NCBI RefSeq assembly: GCF_001753675.2
Contig: NZ_MJUW02000073.1
Coordinates: 1 to 36,516 of the forward strand
Reading direction: 5' to 3'
Length of the DNA stretch: 36,516 nt
DNA from: Candidatus Brocadia sapporoensis
GTDB taxonomy: Bacteria > Planctomycetota > Brocadiia > Brocadiales > Brocadiaceae
Shown: positions 2,280 through 27,377 of the stretch, in pieces
Layout of the letters: each line of letters begins with the position of its first letter
Position numbering within the stretch: position 1 is the first letter of the stretch
Program-made: the position numbers and the translations under genes
Notes under the pieces: model-generated
The model's database searches: none
Seen by the model: only the letters and a program-made list of their open reading frames with translations
What the model was told of the DNA's origin: nothing

Positions 2280-2890
2280 TTATCTTGCAGGACTAGCACG
2301 AAGCATTCGAAGATCATCTTTCAGCAGTCTTCCGGTCTCCGCGTTAATCCTCGACATATGTACAGTTGAACCCCATCTTGGATCAATTGCAGCTAACCTC
2401 TCCACGGTAGCAAGCGCTGTTTCGGCATATCTTAGTTCTTCAGTCATGTCTTCACTTCTTGAGCCAGGTACCGCAAACGACCGTGAGCTCCAGCTAAAAT
2501 CACGTTGGTACTGGGTTTGACACAGCATTTGTTCAGCTAACGCAAAGCGATCTTCCCGCGTACATCTCATTGATGCTCGGCATACATAGTCGTCAGATTG
2601 CGAAAAATCGGAAGTGCCTGATCACATTTTTTATGTGCCATTAGGGAGTCTCCACGATAAAGAGCCACATCGCCCAATTAATACATGCAATAGCATAGGC
2701 TGTATTCTCTCTTACCGACAACTTACATGCAACATCTTTGACTTGCTGGTAAGCTTTCTTTGCGGCGTCGAGATTATCTGCTCGTAATCTGAAATCGCCT
2801 TGCATGAGCAGTCTGTTTGCGAGATAGGTAACCTGTTGTTTGTTGATATTGCTGATCCTCAAGATAGAAGCAGCGGTATTTTTGTTTCAG
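2280..2890 (-). pseudogene. Frameshifted C-terminal remnant of a TPR-containing protein
   Basis: Read on the minus strand, three coding stretches in different frames join into one protein. The first is NKQQVTYLANRLLMQGDFR through YAIACINWA (about 2862-2655). After a shift at the run GGGCGAT it continues as DVALYRGDSLMAHKKC to MYAEHQ. After a second shift at about 2570 it runs as RCTREDRFALAEQ to the end at 2280. The joined sequence has the A/G/Y spacing of tetratricopeptide helices (LGDVALYRGD, KCDQALPIF). An in-frame stop lies just upstream of 2890, so the N-terminal part is missing or too decayed to follow. Two frameshifts and a lost 5' end argue for a pseudogene, not sequencing error, although the latter cannot be excluded from one sequence. 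Confidence 0.55.
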
Positions 2891-3253
2891 GTCTCTCTTG
2901 AAGAGGCAAAACTTGATTTCGAGGGCGGTCACATTTTTAATACTTATGCTAATTGGAAAAATAGCCTCACATGCGACGAATTCCATACGGTTGCTAGGTG
3001 ACACCCATCTGTAACAACCGCACAGCAGCACGATCAGGAATGGGCGACTTCGTTTGATTTCTTTAGGCAAGCTATAAATACGGTCAACTCATGCTGTTTT
3101 TTGATATCGGTCTCAACTGATTTAACGCATTGCCGGAAATCAATCCATTTTAGGTGATGTCGGTGTCTTAATTTATTACGCATACCTGTTTCTCATTTGA
3201 AGCAATGATGAATGGTAACGGTATTTGCGTTTTACCGACAACAAGCTTTACGC

Positions 3254-3821: not shown

Positions 3822-5337
3822 CTTGCTCAATATTCTCTCAAACCTTGGCTCCCCTAAGATCATGGTTATTGGTGATTTTATGCTTGATAAATACGTATGG
3901 GGCGAGGTAAAACGCATTTCGCAGGAAGCGCCAATACCCGTTATAAGTGTTTCTTCTGAAGATGTTCGGCCCGGGGGGGCCGGAAGTGTTGTGAACAATC
4001 TGCAGACACTGGGTGCACAGGTGCTTGCGTGCGGAATTATTGGCGATGACGATCATGGGCATACCCTTATGAATATCTTCCGCAGTTTGGGAATTGATAT
4101 TGAAGGAATCCGTATTGACAAAAGCCGTCCCACTATTCTGAAGATGCGTTTTCTGGGCCATTTGCAAACCGCGGGGAAGGGGATACAGCAACTATTGCGT
4201 GTCGATTATGAAAAGACCCATGTTATATCCGAAAATATTGAGACACAACTTGTCAGTTATCTGAATAAAACCATACCCGGATGCGATATCGTTCTGGTGT
4301 CCGATATGAATAAAGGCTTGCTTTCTCACTCCTTGTTAAAAACCATCGTGACCATCAGCAAAAAGAATAAAAAGATCGTGATCGTTGACCCGAAAATGAT
4401 GAGCGATTATTCCTGTTACGAGGGTTTTACCGCGATGACTCCCAACAGGATTGAAACGGAGATTGCCACCGGAATAAAAATCGATGACATTGATAGCCTG
4501 TATCGCGCTGGAATTAAACTGGTTTCCAGCCTCTCGTTGGAATACTGCATCATTACCATCGATAAAGAAGGCATGTTTCTCTACTCTAAGAATGGCAACG
4601 GAAAGATTATTCCAACCGTTCCGCGGACGGTATTCGACGTAACAGGAGCCGGCGATATGGTACTCAGCATGTTTGGTATGATCGTTGGCAGCGGCTATGG
4701 TTTTGAGGATGCTGCACTTCTTGCCAATATTGCTGCGGGAATAGAAATAGGAAAAATTGGTGCGACACCGGTCAGCAAGGGTGAAATTCTCAGTGAACTT
4801 ATAGGCGGGAAAAGCCAGATGTCGGGCAAGATTAAAGACACCGGGGTAATACAGGGTATTTTAAACGAGCATAGAAAGAAAAATGATAAAATTGTGTTTA
4901 CCAATGGTTGCTTTGATATATTACATATAGGCCACATTGAGTACCTGAAATTTGCCCGAAAACAGGGAGACTTGCTTGTTGTAGGGTTGAATACTGATCG
5001 CTCAGTCAGAAATCAAAAGGGGCCGACGCGTCCCTTTGTTTCTGAAACGGAGCGGGCCAAAATGCTGGCGGCATTAGAAGATGTAACCTATGTAGTGACG
5101 TTTGATGAGTTGACACCCCTGGATTTAATCAAAGCGGTAAAACCAGATGTGCTGGTGAAGGGTGAAGACTGGAAAAACGCAGGGGCAGTGGGGAAGGAAT
5201 TTGTAGAATCCTACGGAGGGAAAGTTCTGTATGCACCTTTTGTGGAGGGTATTTCAACCACAAACATTGTTTCCCGGATAATCGAGAGACACAGCCAGAT
5301 GGGATCTATGAAAGATGCAGCGAGCCAGATACAATAA
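3814..5337 (+). CDS. hldE: Bifunctional heptose 7-phosphate kinase / heptose 1-phosphate adenylyltransferase
   Basis: 507 residues, close to the roughly 480 typical of HldE. The N-terminal domain (about 1-325) is a PfkB/ribokinase-type sugar kinase. It has the early GDFMLDKYVWG segment and the signature DVTGAGD at 275-281, whose last Asp is the expected catalytic base. The C-terminal domain (about 345-490) is a nucleotidyltransferase, with FTNGCFDILHIGH holding the HxGH motif at 371-374 and a later KGEDW motif. The kinase phosphorylates D-glycero-D-manno-heptose 7-phosphate at C1. The adenylyltransferase then makes the ADP-heptose precursor used for the LPS inner core. The start is supported by AAAGGAG ten bases upstream. 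It is the first gene of a compact operon with gmhA (18-base gap) and gmhB. Both activities look intact. The epimerase hldD is not in this window. Confidence 0.93.
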   Translation: MDNLLNILSNLGSPKIMVIGDFMLDKYVWGEVKRISQEAPIPVISVSSEDVRPGGAGSVVNNLQTLGAQVLACGIIGDDDHGHTLMNIFRSLGIDIEGIRIDKSRPTILKMRFLGHLQTAGKGIQQLLRVDYEKTHVISENIETQLVSYLNKTIPGCDIVLVSDMNKGLLSHSLLKTIVTISKKNKKIVIVDPKMMSDYSCYEGFTAMTPNRIETEIATGIKIDDIDSLYRAGIKLVSSLSLEYCIITIDKEGMFLYSKNGNGKIIPTVPRTVFDVTGAGDMVLSMFGMIVGSGYGFEDAALLANIAAGIEIGKIGATPVSKGEILSELIGGKSQMSGKIKDTGVIQGILNEHRKKNDKIVFTNGCFDILHIGHIEYLKFARKQGDLLVVGLNTDRSVRNQKGPTRPFVSETERAKMLAALEDVTYVVTFDELTPLDLIKAVKPDVLVKGEDWKNAGAVGKEFVESYGGKVLYAPFVEGISTTNIVSRIIERHSQMGSMKDAASQIQ

Positions 5338-20648: not shown

Positions 20649-23600
20649 ATGGCAGGAAAACGAAAAATAGAACCTTCTCAAAAGCCCATTGAGCAATACG
20701 AACATAAAGATAAGGAGCGACTCAACAATCCACCGGTGGGCCTGGTGGATGCCCGCACCGATAATGGCGGGCAAAAGAAGAAAAGATACCAGTACGACCC
20801 CCATCTCGACCCGCAACTGCAATGGGCAGGCAAGGCAGAGCATACCAGCTTTGAAGTGCCCACCGTAAGCCTGCACGTCCACGAACGCATCGACCCGCGC
20901 CGAATAATCGAAACCGTTAGGAAAGTGGGTAGTGGTGAGTGGCGAGTGGATAGTAAAGGCAATAAGTATTTCCATCCACTAACCACCAGGCACTTACAAC
21001 TGTCTTTATTTGAAGAGCACAAAAAACCCCTCCGTGAGGCTATCGAATTTTACAAACACAAGGAAGACTGGAGCAACCGTCTCGTAGCGGGCGACAGCCT
21101 GCTCGTGATGAATTCTTTGTTAGAAAAAGAAGGCATGGGCGGCAAGGTGCAGATGGTCTACTTCGACCCTCCGTATGGCATTAAATACGGCAGCAACTTC
21201 CAGCCCTTTGTAAACAAGCGTGACGTAAAAGACGGCAAAGACGAAGACCTGACTGCCGAGCCGGAGATGATAAAAGCATTCCGTGACACCTGGGAACTCG
21301 GCATACACAGCTACCTTACCTATCTGCGTGACCGTTTGCTCTTAGCCAGAGAACTATTGCATGAAAGTGGAAGCATCTTTGTGCAGATCAGTGATGAGAA
21401 TGTGCATCTGGTCAGGAATCTGATGGATGAGGTGTTTGGGGTAGAGAATTTTGTTAGTTTGATAACTTTCAGAAAAACGACGGGGGTTCAAAGTAATTAC
21501 GTTGCATCAGTATCAGATTATTTGATTTGGTATGTAAAAGAAAAAACAAAAGGAAAATTCAGAGCGCTTTTTAAAGAAAAAGACTTAGACGAAAATTATC
21601 GTTTCTACATGAAAAAAACACCCTATGAGTTTGAACCTATAACAGACAGGTTGATAAAAGAAAAGGGAATAAGTGAAGTTAAATCAAAAGCATTCAGATT
21701 TGATCATCTTCTTTCTGCGGGACCATCAACAAAAGATCAATCATTTGGATTTGAAGGAAAAATATATCAACCACCAGTAAGTAATCATTGGAAGACACAT
21801 ATTGGTGGTATGAAAGTGTTAGCAGAGAGAGGAAGGATTTTTTCTAATGGTAAAACACTTGGTTACATACGTTATTTAAATGATTTTTCTTTGTTTCCTT
21901 ACTCTAATTTCTGGGACGATACTACAACAGGAGGTTCTGGAGAAAAAATATATGTCGTACAAACAACTGCAAAAGTAATTGAACGTTGCCTCCTCATGAC
22001 CACCGACCCCGGCGATCTTGTGCTGGACATCACCTGTGGCAGTGGCACAACCGCTTATGTAGCAGAAAACTGGGGCAGGAGGTGGATCACCTGCGATACC
22101 TCCCGTGTTGCAATAACTCTAGCCAAGCAGCGCCTGATGACGGCGGTATTTGATTATTATGAACTGGCACACCCCGATGAAGGCGTAGGAAGTGGTTTCA
22201 AATACAAGACCGTTCCGCACATCACCCTCAAAAGCATTGCCAACAACGAGCCACCAGCACAGGAAACCTTGTATGACCAGCCGTTTATTGATAGCAAACG
22301 ATTGCGGGTGACTGGTCCATTTACCGTTGAGGCAGTACCGGCACCAGTGGCAAAATCAGTGGATAGTGAACAGTGGTTAGGGGCTAGTGATAAACTAACC
22401 ACTCATCACTCGTCACTAACCACTACGAGCATCGCTCGTTCCGGAGAAACCCTGCGCCAAAGCAACTGGCGGGATGAATTGCTTCGGACCGGCGTACGGG
22501 CAAAAGGCGGCAGATTGATTGAGTTTACACGAGTAGAGCCGTTAAGCGGCACACGGTATTTACAGGCAGAGGCAGAGACTAAGAGTGGCGAGTGGACAGT
22601 GGATAGTGATGAGAAAAAACTAACCACTAATCACTCACCACTAACCACTAAGAAAGTCGTTATCTGCTTCGGCCCCGAACATGCACCGTTAGAGCAACGC
22701 ATGGTGGAGCTGGCGCTGGAAGAGGCCATGCACCTGAAACCCAGGCCACAGATGATATTATTCTGCGCCTTCCAGTTTGACGAAGAGGCCGCGAAAGACA
22801 TTGACGAAACCAACTGGCCGGGAGTCACCCTCCTCAAAGCCCAGATGAACGCCGACCTGCTCACCGATGATTTGAAGAAGAAACGCAGCAGTAATGAAAG
22901 CTTCTGGCTCATTGGGCAGCCGGATGTAAGAGTGATTAGTGGAGAGTGGTTAGTGGATAGTGAAGGGAGGCAAATAATATTATATGACAACGGTAAAAAG
23001 TTATCGGGACTTGATAGTCTGGCAGAAATCAATCGCATTGACAAAAAAGATTTATGCCTTTACGCAGCCGTTTCCCAAAGAAGAGATCTATGGACTGACT
23101 TCACAGATGCGCAGGGCATCCGTATCCATTGCGTGCAACATAGCGGAGGGACAGGCGAGGAACAGCACGGGGGAATTTATTCAGTTTCTGGGCATTTCCA
23201 GGGGTTCTTTAGCCGAATTGGAGACCTTGCTGTTGCTGTCAAAAGAGATGAATTTCCTCAAGGAGGAAAATTATCAGATTTTGTCAGCCGATTGCGAAGA
23301 AATAAGCAAATTATTGAATGCATTAATCAAATCACTATCCACTCGCCACTAACCACTAAACACTTAACACAAGTTGAAGTTCATGGCTTCGACTACTACA
23401 ACCCCAAAACCGGAACCGTGGAAAGCGGCGGCAAGGGTGACATCGCCATGTGGATGCTCGATCCTGATTATGACGGAAGAAGTTTGTTTCCTGCGCAAGT
23501 GTTTTTCCCAATGGCAGGCGCCAAAGAAGGTTGGGCAACCTTAGCCAAAAACTTGAGAGCCGAAATTGACGAAGAAAAAATAGAAGCATTTGGCGGAACG

Positions 23601-23690
23601 GTTTCGCTCCCCTTCAAAGCAGGAAAAAATGTGGCAGTAAAAATTATTGATGCCAGAGGAATTGAGTCATTGAAAATTGTCAGACTGTAA
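20649..23690 (+). CDS. Type III-like DNA methyltransferase (Mod) with in-frame palindromic inserts
   Basis: 1013 residues in one open frame. Catalytic motif IV is DPPY at 173-176 (in VYFDPPYGIKYGS). The SAM-binding motif DITCGSGTT starts at 460. The order IV then I marks a beta-class amino-methyltransferase (N6-adenine or N4-cytosine), as in type III Mod proteins. The target-recognition region lies between, about 265-440. The C-terminal third is long for Mod. Four insert-like blocks read in frame at about residues 92-116, 570-592, 643-668 and 761-906. They give the echoing peptides SGEWRVDS, VDSEQWLG, SGEWTVDS and SGEWLVDS, and the mirrored HPLTTRH, HSSLTTT, HSPLTTK and HSPLTTK. They avoid the catalytic motifs. 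The stop is followed at once by the KilA-N start, with res behind, so the three genes form one operon. The R-M subtype by name is inferred from the res partner. Confidence 0.88.
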   Translation: MAGKRKIEPSQKPIEQYEHKDKERLNNPPVGLVDARTDNGGQKKKRYQYDPHLDPQLQWAGKAEHTSFEVPTVSLHVHERIDPRRIIETVRKVGSGEWRVDSKGNKYFHPLTTRHLQLSLFEEHKKPLREAIEFYKHKEDWSNRLVAGDSLLVMNSLLEKEGMGGKVQMVYFDPPYGIKYGSNFQPFVNKRDVKDGKDEDLTAEPEMIKAFRDTWELGIHSYLTYLRDRLLLARELLHESGSIFVQISDENVHLVRNLMDEVFGVENFVSLITFRKTTGVQSNYVASVSDYLIWYVKEKTKGKFRALFKEKDLDENYRFYMKKTPYEFEPITDRLIKEKGISEVKSKAFRFDHLLSAGPSTKDQSFGFEGKIYQPPVSNHWKTHIGGMKVLAERGRIFSNGKTLGYIRYLNDFSLFPYSNFWDDTTTGGSGEKIYVVQTTAKVIERCLLMTTDPGDLVLDITCGSGTTAYVAENWGRRWITCDTSRVAITLAKQRLMTAVFDYYELAHPDEGVGSGFKYKTVPHITLKSIANNEPPAQETLYDQPFIDSKRLRVTGPFTVEAVPAPVAKSVDSEQWLGASDKLTTHHSSLTTTSIARSGETLRQSNWRDELLRTGVRAKGGRLIEFTRVEPLSGTRYLQAEAETKSGEWTVDSDEKKLTTNHSPLTTKKVVICFGPEHAPLEQRMVELALEEAMHLKPRPQMILFCAFQFDEEAAKDIDETNWPGVTLLKAQMNADLLTDDLKKKRSSNESFWLIGQPDVRVISGEWLVDSEGRQIILYDNGKKLSGLDSLAEINRIDKKDLCLYAAVSQRRDLWTDFTDAQGIRIHCVQHSGGTGEEQHGGIYSVSGHFQGFFSRIGDLAVAVKRDEFPQGGKLSDFVSRLRRNKQIIECINQITIHSPLTTKHLTQVEVHGFDYYNPKTGTVESGGKGDIAMWMLDPDYDGRSLFPAQVFFPMAGAKEGWATLAKNLRAEIDEEKIEAFGGTVSLPFKAGKNVAVKIIDARGIESLKIVRL
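20923..20997 (+). repeat. Palindromic heptad insert 1 in mod (miniature)
   Basis: The left arm is four tandem heptamers: AGTGGGT, AGTGGTG, AGTGGCG, AGTGGAT, then AGT (about 20924-20954). A spacer of about 19 bases and a right arm ATCCACTAACCACCAGG (from 20974), roughly complementary to the left arm, follow. It carries no gene. In the mod frame it encodes SGEWRVDS...HPLTTRH. The exact ends are not certain. Confidence 0.7.
21440..21985 (+). other. A+T-rich target-recognition segment of mod
   Basis: Between the DPPY part and the SAM-motif part, composition drops from G+C-rich codons (GGC, ACC, CTG) to A+T-rich ones (AAA, GAA, TTT, ATA) and then returns abruptly at about 21990 (CGTTGCCTCCTCATGACCACCGACCCC). 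This is the position of the specificity domain in beta-class methyltransferases. The contrast suggests that the recognition module was exchanged by recombination. Composition was judged by eye. Confidence 0.5.
22358..22424 (+). repeat. Palindromic heptad insert 2 in mod (miniature)
   Basis: Left arm heptamers are AGTGGAT, AGTGAAC, AGTGGTT, AGGGGCT, AGTGAT (22358-22391). The right arm is the inverted equivalent, AACTAACCACTCATCACTCG then TCACTAACCACT (22393-22424). There is almost no loop, so the RNA would fold into a long imperfect hairpin. It is followed by a second tiny palindrome, ACGAGC-ATC-GCTCGT, at 22425-22439. It is read in frame by mod. Confidence 0.75.
22577..22651 (+). repeat. Palindromic heptad insert 3 in mod (miniature)
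   Basis: The left arm contains AGTGGCG, AGTGGAC, AGTGGAT, AGTGAT; the right arm (22619-22651) is AACTAACCACTAATCACTCA then CCACTAACCACTA. The loop is GAGAAAA. In the mod frame it reads SGEWTVDS, then KKLTTNHSPLTTK, nearly the same peptide as the outer ends of insert 4. About 190 bases separate it from insert 2. Confidence 0.8.
22964..22970 (+). promoter_or_regulatory. Internal Shine-Dalgarno-like site for the nested gene
   Basis: AGGGAGG directly follows the left arm and lies 13 bases before the nested ATG at 22984, with an A+T-rich spacer. The spacing is a little long but the match is good, which supports independent translation of the nested gene from the mod mRNA. Confidence 0.5.
22984..23352 (+). 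CDS. Four-helix-bundle protein (23S rRNA intervening-sequence protein family), nested in mod
   Basis: 122 residues, in the +1 frame relative to mod and wholly inside it. The sequence carries the full family pattern. It opens VKSYRDLIVWQKSIALTKKI, goes on with FPKEEIYGLTSQMRRASVSI, then ACNIAEGQARNSTGEFIQFL, then ISRGSLAELETLLLLSKEM, and ends in a final amphipathic helix. This is the S23/IVP family, best known from ORFs in 23S rRNA intervening sequences and related to the Avd accessory protein of diversity-generating retroelements. Members form small, often pentameric, nucleic-acid-binding bundles. No residue looks lost, so the protein should fold. Its stop (TAA 23350-23352) is in the right heptad arm. 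Its role here is unknown; mobility or RNA binding is inferred from the family's association with inserted sequences. Confidence 0.88.
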   Translation: MTTVKSYRDLIVWQKSIALTKKIYAFTQPFPKEEIYGLTSQMRRASVSIACNIAEGQARNSTGEFIQFLGISRGSLAELETLLLLSKEMNFLKEENYQILSADCEEISKLLNALIKSLSTRH

Positions 23691-24506
23691 ATGAAAAAAA
23701 ACAAAAAAATCATTGTTGAAGGCGCTGAAATCACTGTGTTCCAAAGCAGGGAACATGATTTCATCTCCCTAACGGATATGGCAAAAAGTCAAATGCAGGA
23801 AGCCATTATTATAAAGTGGCTGAGTTTGAAAAGCACCATAGAATACTTAGGTGAGTGGGAGGCTTTGTATAACCCTGATTTTAATTATACCGAATTCGGT
23901 ACAATTAAAAATGCTGCCGGTAGTAACAATTTTGTGCTGTCAGTTAAAAACTGGATAGAACAAACAGGTGCCGTAGGGATAACGGCTACTGCGGGCAGAT
24001 ATGGCGGAACGTATGCCCATAAAGACATTGCCTTTCATTTTGGAATGTGGATTAGTCCAAAATTTCAGTTGCTTTTGGTAAAGGAATTCCAACGCCTCAA
24101 GGCGGATGAAAACGACCGTTTAAAGTTAGAATGGAATCTGCAAAGAACCCTGTCAAAAGTAAACTACCATATTCACACCGATGCTATAAAAGAAAATCTG
24201 ATACCCGAGGCTCTTACCAAAGCACAAATCAACTTTGTTTATGCCAATGAAGCGGATATGTTGAATGTAGCATTATTTGGAATTACAGCAAAACAATGGC
24301 GGGATACTCATCCTGATAAAGAAGGCAATATCCGCGATTACGCCACCATTGAACAATTAGTTGTGCTTTCTAATCTGGAAAGTATTAATGCAGTATTGAT
24401 TCATCAAGGCTTAACCCAGAGTGATAGACTGCTGCAATTAAATAAGGTTGCTATCACTCAGATGAAATCATTGATTAAAAACAAACCGTTGAAGGGTTTG
24501 AAATAA
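23691..24506 (+). CDS. KilA-N domain protein within the R-M operon
   Basis: 271 residues. The N-terminal half (about 5-135) is a KilA-N-like DNA-binding domain: ITVFQSREHDFISLTDMAKS, WLSLKSTIEYLGEWEALYNP, FNYTEFGTIKNAAGSNNFVL, then a GAVGITATAGRYGGTYAHKD segment and IAFHFGMWISPKFQLLLVKE. The C-terminal half is helical (about 140-271), with an NVALFGITAKQWRDTHPDKEGNIRDYAT stretch that looks like a second small domain. The start codon touches the mod stop with no gap, and res begins 6 bases after its stop. It is therefore translated as part of the R-M unit. KilA-N domains are usual in phages and large DNA viruses. Here it could regulate the operon, or help DNA recognition or anti-phage sensing; none of these is shown by the sequence. 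Confidence 0.85.
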   Translation: MKKNKKIIVEGAEITVFQSREHDFISLTDMAKSQMQEAIIIKWLSLKSTIEYLGEWEALYNPDFNYTEFGTIKNAAGSNNFVLSVKNWIEQTGAVGITATAGRYGGTYAHKDIAFHFGMWISPKFQLLLVKEFQRLKADENDRLKLEWNLQRTLSKVNYHIHTDAIKENLIPEALTKAQINFVYANEADMLNVALFGITAKQWRDTHPDKEGNIRDYATIEQLVVLSNLESINAVLIHQGLTQSDRLLQLNKVAITQMKSLIKNKPLKGLK

Positions 24507-24512
24507 TAGCTT

Positions 24513-27377
24513 ATGAAAAATATCAACAAGCTGATCATTAATTCCCCTTACGTTGAGCCGCAACAGTATTGGGAATATATCAGAGACACCAGAGAATTTA
24601 TTTTACAGGAAGGTCGCAGGCCGGCAGGATATGTGGTGGCTTCTGAAAGTTCAAAATCATTTGACGATCCGGGCATATTCGTTGAAATTGATTTGGTAAA
24701 CACCATTCGCCCAAGAATTAAAAAATGGCGTGAAGATGGCTATCCCGGAGTTACAGGAATCACTAAACGACTTTTACAACATTGGCAAGACCCCGAAGAA
24801 CGCAAAGACCGCAGGTTTTTCTTTTGTCAATTGGAAGCCATTGAAACCTTGATTTGGTTAACCGAAGCACCCGAAGCGGATAAAACAGGAATTGACATAC
24901 CGAGTGATGGTGGAGAGTTTAGCCGCTGGTGCAACAAAATGGCAACAGGCTCGGGAAAAACTGTTGTAATGAGTCAACTCATTGCCTGGAATGTATTGAA
25001 CAAAGTAGCCAACGGCAAAGACAACCGTTTTTCAAAAAATGTTTTAGTGGTTGCACCGGGATTAACGGTGCGCAATCGTCTTTCGGTTCTCAATCCTACT
25101 GGCCCTGAAAACTATTATGAGGAGTTCAACATTGTGCCTTCGGGGTTAATGGACTCTCTGCGTCAGGGAAAAATTAAAATCATCAACTGGCACGCTTTAG
25201 CCTGGCAAACAGAAGAAAAGATTGCAAAGAAAAAATCAGTGGATAAGCGTGGGGCAAAAAGTGATGAAGCCTATGTAAAAGAAGTATTGGGCGACATGGC
25301 AAACGCTTCAAACATCATCGTAATAAATGACGAAGCACACCACGCGTGGCGTATTCCGGCAGAAAGTAAAATCAAAGGCATTAAAAAAGAAGATATTGAA
25401 GAAAGTACTGTATGGGTTGGAGGTCTTGACCGCATTCACAGATCAAGAGGTATTTTGCGTTGTTTTGATTTCTCTGCCACACCATTTGCACCAAGTGGGA
25501 AAAAAGCAAGTGAAGAAGCTCTCTATCCCTGGATTGTTTCAGACTTCGGTTTGAATGATGCCATTGAAGCAGGTTTGGTAAAAACACCAAGAGTTGTGGT
25601 TCGTGATGATGGAAATGTGGACAAGGACTTACGATCACGTCTGTATCATATTTACATGGATGAAACGGTAAAAGACGACATCAACCAAAAGGCAGACGAA
25701 TCTGTTTCGCTTCCTGATTTGATTAAAAACGCCTATCTACTTTTAGGCAAAGACTGGAAAGCAACTAAAGATGATTGGGAGGAAGCGGGTTACAAAATTC
25801 CACCGGTAATGATTACGGTGGCAAATACTACTTTTACATCTGCCCGGATAAAACATTCATTTGATAAAGACAGTTTTGCTTTATCGGTTGCTGGTTTAGG
25901 CGATCTGTGCATTCCTGAAAAAGTACTTCAGATTGACAGCAGTATTCTTCAAAAAGCAGAAGCCGAAACTTCAGAGTTTTTAGTTTTTAGTGATGAGTTT
26001 TCAGGGAAAGATGATGATAATGAAAATGAAGTTGATACGCTCGGTGAAGAACAAAAAACTAAAAACCAACAACTAAAAACCAAGATAACCAAAAAACAGC
26101 AAGCCGAACTATTAAGAAGAACAGTTGATACTGTTGGAAAAATCGGTGAACCCGGAGAACAGATTCAGAATGTAATTTCTGTGGGTATGCTTAGTGAAGG
26201 CTGGGATGCCAAAACCGTAACGCATATTATGGGTTTACGGGCATTCAGCAGTCAGTTACTGTGTGAGCAGGTGGTAGGCAGAGGATTACGGAGAACATCT
26301 TATGATGTGGGTGAAGATGGTTTGTTTGAACCTGAGTATGTAAACATATTCGGTGTTCCATTTACATTCTTACCGCATGAAGGCGGACAAGACGGCCCAC
26401 CACCACCGCCTCCAAAACCAAAGACTGAGATAAAACCTGTGAAGGAAAAAGCAGCGCATGAAATCAGCTTTCCGAATGTGGTACGAATTGATCACATCTA
26501 TAAACCACAATTGACTTTAGATTTAGAAAAAGTCAAGTCATTGGAACTTGACCCTTATGAATCTATCACAGAAGCGGAATTGGCTGCGATTATTGCCGGT
26601 AAACCAAATCCGGCTGCACTTTCAGAAATTGACCTGAAAGAAATCGCAGAGAAATTCAGACTACAATCCATCATTTTCAGAATTGCATCAACCATCTACA
26701 ACTCCGAGAAAAAACCGGACTGGAAAGGAAGCAAGGAAACATTCCTGATTCAACTCATTAACATTATTGAGAAGTTTATCTGTTCGAACAAAATCGTTAT
26801 CAAAAATCCTTTATTCAATCAGGACGAATCAAGGAAACGAATTTTGATAATGCTGAACATGAATAAAGTTGTTCAGCATATCTGGAACGAAATACGGGCA
26901 GTAAACACACAAGCATTAACACCGGTATTCGACAAAGAAAACCCCATCCGTTCAACATCTGACATCAGGACCTGGTGGACAAGCAAACCCAACGAAGCGT
27001 TTGACAAGACGCATATCAACTTTGTTGTGGTTGACAGCAAGTGGGAATACCTGGAAGCCAAAACAATCAATGAATCAAAAGTTGTGGAATCGTTCGTTAA
27101 AAACGACCATTTGAATTTTGTAATCTACTATAACTACCAGGGTGTCGTAAGGCGTTTCTTCCCTGATTTTATTTGTAAACTGACAAATGGAGAATATTTA
27201 ATAATAGAAACTAAGGGGCAAGACAACGAACAGAATAAAACAAAACGGGCCTACCTTGACGAATGGTGCAGAGCAGTGAACGAGCATGGTGGGTTCGGGA
27301 AATGGGGTTGGGCGGTGTCATTTGATCCCAATGATCTGGAAAGATTATTGTCCAATGCCTACAATGGAATCCCATAG
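24513..27377 (+). CDS. Restriction endonuclease subunit (Res), helicase-nuclease, type III-like
   Basis: 954 residues. Superfamily 2 helicase motifs: Walker A MATGSGKT (143-150), DEAH at 273-276, SAT at 321-323, GMLSEGWD (motif V), and QVVGRGLRR at 586-594 (motif VI). The C-terminal nuclease is PD-(D/E)xK: PDF with D885, then IIETKG with E899 and K901. The N-terminus (LIINSPYVEPQQYWEY...EGRRPAGYVVAS) matches the family of type III-like Res proteins that I know as BPTD_3080-type. The translocase presumably communicates between sites and the nuclease cuts unmodified DNA, with Mod supplying specificity. All catalytic residues are present, so the system looks active. An in-frame palindromic block lies at about 488-523, between the helicase lobes. 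A poly-proline run (GPPPPPPKPKTE) follows motif VI. The start is 6 bases after the KilA-N gene. Confidence 0.9.
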   Translation: MKNINKLIINSPYVEPQQYWEYIRDTREFILQEGRRPAGYVVASESSKSFDDPGIFVEIDLVNTIRPRIKKWREDGYPGVTGITKRLLQHWQDPEERKDRRFFFCQLEAIETLIWLTEAPEADKTGIDIPSDGGEFSRWCNKMATGSGKTVVMSQLIAWNVLNKVANGKDNRFSKNVLVVAPGLTVRNRLSVLNPTGPENYYEEFNIVPSGLMDSLRQGKIKIINWHALAWQTEEKIAKKKSVDKRGAKSDEAYVKEVLGDMANASNIIVINDEAHHAWRIPAESKIKGIKKEDIEESTVWVGGLDRIHRSRGILRCFDFSATPFAPSGKKASEEALYPWIVSDFGLNDAIEAGLVKTPRVVVRDDGNVDKDLRSRLYHIYMDETVKDDINQKADESVSLPDLIKNAYLLLGKDWKATKDDWEEAGYKIPPVMITVANTTFTSARIKHSFDKDSFALSVAGLGDLCIPEKVLQIDSSILQKAEAETSEFLVFSDEFSGKDDDNENEVDTLGEEQKTKNQQLKTKITKKQQAELLRRTVDTVGKIGEPGEQIQNVISVGMLSEGWDAKTVTHIMGLRAFSSQLLCEQVVGRGLRRTSYDVGEDGLFEPEYVNIFGVPFTFLPHEGGQDGPPPPPPKPKTEIKPVKEKAAHEISFPNVVRIDHIYKPQLTLDLEKVKSLELDPYESITEAELAAIIAGKPNPAALSEIDLKEIAEKFRLQSIIFRIASTIYNSEKKPDWKGSKETFLIQLINIIEKFICSNKIVIKNPLFNQDESRKRILIMLNMNKVVQHIWNEIRAVNTQALTPVFDKENPIRSTSDIRTWWTSKPNEAFDKTHINFVVVDSKWEYLEAKTINESKVVESFVKNDHLNFVIYYNYQGVVRRFFPDFICKLTNGEYLIIETKGQDNEQNKTKRAYLDEWCRAVNEHGGFGKWGWAVSFDPNDLERLLSNAYNGIP
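25975..26081 (+). repeat. Palindromic heptad insert in res (AGTTTTT type)
   Basis: Left arm: AGTTTTT, AGTTTTT, AGTGATG, AGTTTTC (25975-26002). The right arm, read on the other strand (26050-26081), is GGTTTTT, AGTTGTT, GGTTTTT, AGTTTTT. Between them are about 45 bases encoding an acidic linker (KDDDNENEVDTLGEEQ). No gene lies inside. The arms share the 7-base period and AGT start with the mod inserts, but with T-rich heptamers. The res frame stays open. Confidence 0.6.

Follow-up and report, generated by a model that had tools for sequence, protein, structure and literature searches.

The described systems closest to the elements discussed here are the intervening sequences (IVSs) of bacterial 23S rRNA genes. 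The IVS of Coxiella burnetii contains an S23p/IVP open reading frame (ORF), is bounded by terminal inverted repeats and is excised by RNase III; tandem GACAGAT heptamers precede the ORF, and their number varies between strains (PMC4990558). A second system is provided by the Rickettsia palindromic elements, which lie in frame in protein genes and are read through (Ogata 2000, 2002; review PMC10969869). In addition, heptamer repeats have been described in several bacteria. They include the dispersed GGGAATC/GGGGAYT repeats of Xanthomonas and Nostoc, with 70-75 convergent inverted pairs in Xanthomonas (PMC4692102), and the TAACTGA repeats of Beggiatoaceae (PMC4679880). Finally, the Avd proteins of diversity-generating retroelements are structurally homologous to PF05635 proteins (PMC10053308). 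The 23S IVSs, the Rickettsia elements and the bacterial heptamer repeats are known separately; the literature searched contains no description of an architecture-defined family that joins them. Within the open-access literature, most subscription journals being outside the scope, there was no account of heptad-periodic inverted arms joined generally to PF05635 genes, nor of PF05635 elements lodged in methyltransferase genes. Searches of the literature with the repeat sequences as words returned nothing relevant.

The window, i.e., the whole stretch of DNA analyzed, comprises 36,516 nucleotides of Candidatus Brocadia sapporoensis (NZ_MJUW02000073.1) and contains a type III restriction-modification (R-M) operon. 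The operon consists of mod (20649-23690, plus strand), an ORF with a KilA-N domain (23691-24506) that lies between the two subunit genes, and res (24513-27377, plus strand). The mod gene encodes a methyltransferase of 1013 amino acids (Pfam N6_N4_Mtase, 4e-32; PADLOC MTase_III, 2e-152) and carries four blocks with heptad arms, all described on the plus strand. Three of these are small blocks of the AGTGG type (G-type), at 20924-21001, 22358-22428 and 22584-22653, with predicted RNA hairpin z scores of -3.5, -4.9 and -5.8, respectively. Relatives (genomes and loci are designated here by G and L numbers) lack the first block or have another palindrome in its place; G007 has a gene-less block with AGTTTTN (T-type) arms at the site of the second; and most have a CCCCCTCTGGAGGGGG-type palindrome at the site of the third. 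The fourth is a full element (22931-23373) with G-type arms at 22931-22963 and 23332-23373. Nested within mod in another frame, it encloses an ORF (22984-23352) for a four-helix-bundle protein of the 23S-rRNA intervening-sequence protein (IVP) family (PF05635, 5.8e-41; XCC0516, PDB 2gsc, 2.2e-23). The mod frame is open across the nested IVP gene in six genomes and also in other phyla. In-frame GTCCCCCTCTGGAGGGGGTAAGGGGGAGGA-type palindromes occur at mod linkers of G001, G002, G004, G005, G007, G010 and G031 where the window has heptad blocks.

The partner gene res encodes a restriction subunit of 954 amino acids (Pfam ResIII, 1.6e-8; PADLOC REase_III, 6.3e-8), and it also contains a heptad-armed block. 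This block had been recognized in the sequence-only reading as inverted AGTTTTT-type arms around an acidic 45-nt spacer in frame in Res; that description held, and its best limits were refined to 25974-26083, corresponding to residues 488-523. The left arm (25974-26004, plus strand) reads G, the heptads AGTTTTT, AGTTTTT, AGTGATG and AGTTTTC, and a final AG. It is followed by the spacer (26005-26049, plus strand), a sequence of about GKDDDNENEVDTLGEE that contains no gene, and by the right arm (26050-26083, plus strand). The right arm is the inverted partner of the left and presents its CA-rich strand; on the opposite strand it reads GGTTTTT, AGTTGTT, GGTTTTT and AGTTTTT. Tandem Repeats Finder assigns period 7 to both arms, which are imperfect arrays of 2.4 and 4.4 units. 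It is proposed here, with a probability of roughly 0.6, that this block belongs, as a gene-less (miniature) form, to a family of small, probably selfish elements that is defined by architecture.

The architecture was evaluated with a joint score, combining inverted-repeat complementarity with lag-7 periodicity, that was scanned over the res gene. It peaks at 36.5 exactly at the block (25974/26055), and none of 978 dinucleotide-preserving shuffles of res equals this value (mean 26.5, SD 1.07, maximum 31). Low-complexity DNA was considered and ruled out, since none of the 978 composition-matched shuffles reaches the score of the block and since IVP elements have matching arms. A strong RNA hairpin as a conserved feature of the block was likewise ruled out by z scores of 0.06 and -0.38, no more stable than shuffles, unlike the strong hairpins of the three small mod blocks. 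The 7-base period and the initial AGT had been proposed to be shared with the mod blocks. Genome-wide, a pattern of three AGTN4 heptads followed by AGT (AGTNNNNAGTNNNNAGTNNNNAGT) has 16 matches in the 2.93-Mb genome versus one for the reversed control; these collapse to seven distinct blocks, five of which lie in the single mod-res operon. No exact arrays of three AGTTTTN heptads were present elsewhere in the same genome, so no donor for the Res block was found there.

The Res block meets two criteria of IVP/IVS-type elements, inverted terminal repeats and arms of approximately 7-nt tandem repeats, and fails two others, as it has no PF05635 gene inside and its host is res rather than 23S rRNA. 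The wider set of elements described below resembles the 23S IVSs in the PF05635 gene, present in the mod element, the terminal inverted repeats, the heptamers and the size (428 nt in Coxiella versus a median of 468 nt here). Whereas the IVSs reside in 23S rRNA, the present elements are found between genes or, within protein genes, in frame, and an ORF is missing from the Res block. Like the Rickettsia palindromic elements, the Res block is palindromic, in frame and read through, and it meets their criterion of in-frame insertion into a protein gene. However, the Rickettsia elements are sequence families. In the present elements it is the period and the inversion of the arms that are preserved, whereas their sequence is free; the full members also contain an IVP gene. 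The criterion of conserved sequence among copies is therefore unmet: the two arm types found at one mod site are only 62-68% alike, and the heptamers vary among loci. The repeats of Xanthomonas, Nostoc and Beggiatoaceae are similarly tandem and dispersed in the genome but mostly intergenic, and no link to IVP was found in the parts of those sources that were available; the Res heptamer is also T-rich and lacks G tracts for a quadruplex. The mod-borne IVP weakly matches the bAvd model (2.7e-8, below the cut-off) and is above the cut-off only for PF05635.

Three or more perfect AGTTTTT heptads would place a TAG in each heptad, and with the frame rotating from one heptad to the next all three frames would be closed; by the same rotation, TAA in the other arm would likewise close all three. 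The left arm of the Res block has out-of-frame TAGs at 25981 and 25988, and GAG (25995-25997) replaces the in-frame TAG expected at 25995. The right arm likewise has TAAs at 26060 and 26074 that do not fall in frame, and CAA (26067-26069) takes the place of the in-frame TAA expected at 26067. In each arm, therefore, the heptad deviates exactly at the position of the would-be in-frame stop, so that the block is read through as a linker that is predicted to be disordered. These deviations fit a block that is tolerated through read-through. In a shallow AlphaFold model of Res (mean pLDDT 57.7), residues 483-526 are coil with pLDDT below 50. The block had been assigned to the junction between the helicase lobes; this low-confidence model instead suggests that the linker probably lies within the second lobe, between strands 433-437 (read as motif IV) and 553-557 (read as motif V).

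Comparison with Res homologues had been suggested as a means of detecting an indel, and a length-conserved linker or simple low-complexity DNA would have counted against the block; neither was observed. Res homologues of 81-84% identity are present in the same family, and no site of the protein varies more in length than the linker, which has seven distinct lengths, from 9 to 30 residues, in 11 close homologues. Most homologues possess a shorter acidic linker without arms. Three (L053, which is the genome's own second res copy, L027 and L029) possess an unrelated in-frame palindrome, dispersed-looking and of the form GTCATTCCGAGC...AGCGAGGAATCT / AGATTCTTCGGC or AGATTCTTC...TCAGAATGAC. Because unrelated palindromes occupy the same mod and res linkers, these sites may simply collect any in-frame palindrome. 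The heptad block itself is kept in the Res of one related species (L024 in G001). Arm identity between the window and G001 is 97% (30/31 and 33/34), compared with 56% for the spacer and 74.5% for the res gene, and only about 1% of equal-length stretches match the conservation of the arms. The arm lengths are equal in these two species, whose blocks differ in length only by 6 nt, located in the spacer. Relative to the nearest arm-less linkers, the net gain is approximately 16 amino acids, less than the 36-residue length of the block, and for this reason the spacer may be the old host linker around which the arms arose or arrived separately. Arms added around an existing linker cannot be told from insertion of a whole block, and since the arm-less linkers are too diverged, neither the insertion ends nor a target-site duplication can be defined.

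At the site of the PF05635 gene in mod, G-type arms are found in the window, G001 and G004, and T-type arms in G002, G007 and G031. G005 and G010 have the CCCCCTCTGGAGGGGG-type palindrome, and G053, G043 and G006 have a short, empty linker. The upstream host flanks are 86-92% identical in all pairs of the six genomes with heptad arms, and the element cores are 90-97% identical within an arm type but only 69-76% between types. Since the flanks are uniform and the cores split into two groups, the element was exchanged independently of the surrounding gene. The T-type elements of G002, G007 and G031 enclose the four-helix-bundle gene, so that the copies with AGTTTTT-like arms and such a gene anticipated from the window alone do exist, in the form of AGTTTTN arms. 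The left arm of the Res block equals the left arm of the T-type IVP element in G031 mod at 22 of 23 nt, and both are in the same codon phase (EFLVFSD). The right arm scores 19.5-22 against the T-type right arms of G031, G002 and G007, where the background maximum is 9.5, and in the rest of res nothing scored near the arms of the block against the T-type mod arms. By the criteria for miniature inverted-repeat transposable elements (MITEs), these gene-bearing T-type elements would be candidates for the autonomous relative with matching ends, a part of IVP in mobility being inferred only. The Res block thus appears to descend from an IVP-bearing element; this inference rests on the similarity of the arms and the shared codon phase, and movement has not been seen.

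An alternative that requires no mobile element in res is that slippage and template switching in a permissive, disordered linker created the heptads and their mirror arms in place. Slippage and template switching do produce tandem repeats and quasi-palindromes in bacteria, and the linker, being length-variable and predicted to be disordered, is unconstrained. Differing heptamers between elements would also suit local homogenization. This origin nevertheless seems unlikely, given that the left arm so closely matches that of an IVP element carried by mod of a related genome, that five of the seven blocks of this kind in the genome fall in one operon, and that the arms are kept between species while the spacer drifts.

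That the inverted arms are a general property of IVP genes was examined in 80 PF05635 loci from many phyla, collected by protein similarity alone. The 160 nt preceding each gene were compared with the reverse-complemented 160 nt that follow it; direct comparison, displacement by 500 or 900 nt and swapped loci served as controls. The median arm score was 17.0, versus 8.0 for direct, 8.0 for displaced and 7.5 for swapped comparisons, and scores of at least 14 were obtained for 72.5% of the real pairs, 10% of the direct, 0% of the displaced and 2.75% of the swapped. Lag 7 (and 14) was prominent in the flanks (0.70 vs 0.44, with values of at least 0.83 in 25.6% vs 0.7%); lags 8 and 9 occurred in few loci. 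In the 58 armed loci, the best period was 7 in 49 and G exceeded C in the left arm in 55. The elements had a median length of about 468 nt, with the left arm ending about 30 nt upstream of where the match begins and the right arm starting about 8 nt past the stop. The heptamers themselves differ strongly between loci and include AGTGGTT, AGTTTTT, AGGGATT, TAGCCGT, GGGAGTC, GTAGGGT and GTATTGA. In a larger set of 137 loci, 100 of the 136 that could be scored were armed with inverted repeats, mostly 7-periodic. The earlier suggestion of a family defined by arm architecture rather than exact sequence is borne out far outside this operon by the inverted, 7-periodic arms and differing heptamers of the 80 loci.

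Several further arrangements were observed. At L058 (contig C106 of the window's own genome, 306-4424), two PF05635-like ORFs (1257-1841 and 2487-3053) are interleaved with cas7, cas4 and cas1, and an IVP ORF (4134-4424) follows cas1, the cas names being assigned by inspection. On the minus strand of another contig of the same genome (L059, C14, 3086-4330), an ORF resembling a sugar aminotransferase contains a one-armed, in-frame array of AGTTTTG-type heptads, and at the corresponding position its homologue in G025 (L092) has three perfect heptads. ORFs of 747-779 amino acids at G020:C1:3442300, G028:C24:33241 and G025:C79:28763 contain PF05635 matches in their own frame and are possible fusions. 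Six genomes of the same order (G033, G034, G037, G039, G040 and G045) contain dozens to hundreds of AGT-heptad matches (AGTATCC, AGTAGCT, AGTTATT). These far outnumber the PF05635 genes, although some of the genomes also show an elevated reversed control.

The distribution of armed IVP elements also bears on the possibility that alleles of the R-M operon swap whole linker modules by recombination, the block traveling with the allele and not as a mobile element. R-M genes are often exchanged, and unrelated contents do alternate in the mod and res linkers among related genomes. In mod, however, one element gives way to the other at the element boundaries, with no such split in the flanks, and armed IVP elements occur at many unrelated loci in many phyla, which makes this explanation quite improbable. 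A phase-variation device, in which slippage of heptads (7 not being a multiple of 3) would toggle res as simple repeats do in the type III mod genes of phasevarions, is hardly tenable: type III mod genes are known to be phase-variable (PMC2667262) and heptamer copy number differs between Coxiella strains, but the Res arrays are short and imperfect and the arm lengths are identical in the window and G001, the only two species compared.

The mod element is not the only IVP gene inside another gene. The 137 loci include 14 in which a long host ORF contains the PF05635 gene, in every case on the same strand and at the same frame offset. The hosts are 13 DNA methyltransferases of restriction or defense systems and one DNA polymerase III alpha-type gene (L232). 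Eight of the methyltransferases are relatives of the window mod, five of them (L017, L066, L067, L071 and L073) from genomes of the same family as the window and the others from Hydrogenedentes (L105), Dehalococcoidia (L116) and Phycisphaerae (L158). The remainder are a second Mod family (L068) and Eco57I/type IIG/DrmMI-like enzymes (L104, L134, L168 and L215). As the five from the window's family represent one site in one genome family, there are at most about 10 independent in-gene cases. In the in-gene PF05635 genes, the offset-2 frame contains no stops where 2.8 are expected from synonymous shuffles, compared with 7.5 observed and 8.9 expected in 120 other PF05635 genes, indicating that the open second frame is peculiar to the in-gene copies and no general property of PF05635. 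Because an open host frame was also the criterion by which in-gene copies were recognized, disrupted hosts are uncounted. The preference for methyltransferases is an observation and not a tested enrichment, as disrupted hosts were uncounted and the gene-family background was left out. What seemed to be an IVP inside a UvrD-like helicase gene (L080) was rejected as an artifact of misplaced coordinates, and antisense ORFs across IVP genes (L223, L232, L234 and L240) were set aside because they look like spurious frames in GC-rich DNA.

Returning to the Res block as a gene-less member, the family would be characterized by two inverted arms of short tandem repeats, usually of 7 nt and with a heptamer that varies by element, the arms having more G than C on the strand that leads inward; full members would enclose one small PF05635 gene. 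The element or its arms may have been inserted or copied into a loop of Res that tolerates foreign peptide, and insertions out of frame or elsewhere in res would have been purged. The IVP, supplied in trans, e.g., by the mod copy, might recognize the periodic arms and promote copying. The role of IVP and the mobility of the elements are inferred, and there are no binding data; a ring like that of XCC0516 (PDB 2gsc), which consists of five four-helix bundles (PMC4990558), would be a plausible shape for binding a periodic strand. Counting against a gene-less member, no transposition, excision or within-species polymorphic insertion was seen in the genomes compared here. A broader generalization is possible but remains tentative, namely that these elements constitute a class of mobile elements whose recognition depends on period and inversion and not on sequence. 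The IVP would read 7-nt-periodic inverted arms of any heptamer and spread both full and gene-less copies, with a preference for the DNA methyltransferase genes of restriction and defense systems. Full copies would survive there because a second frame of the IVP gene is kept open for read-through by the host.

It is unresolved what the widespread PF05635 four-helix-bundle proteins do and how the 23S IVS elements originated (PMC4990558). Arms that are shared by PF05635 genes independently of sequence provide a candidate substrate on which the protein can be tested and also allow gene-less copies to be located. Moreover, repeated lodging in methyltransferase genes with the host frame kept open would mean that a selfish gene is overprinted on a defense gene, an unusual situation.
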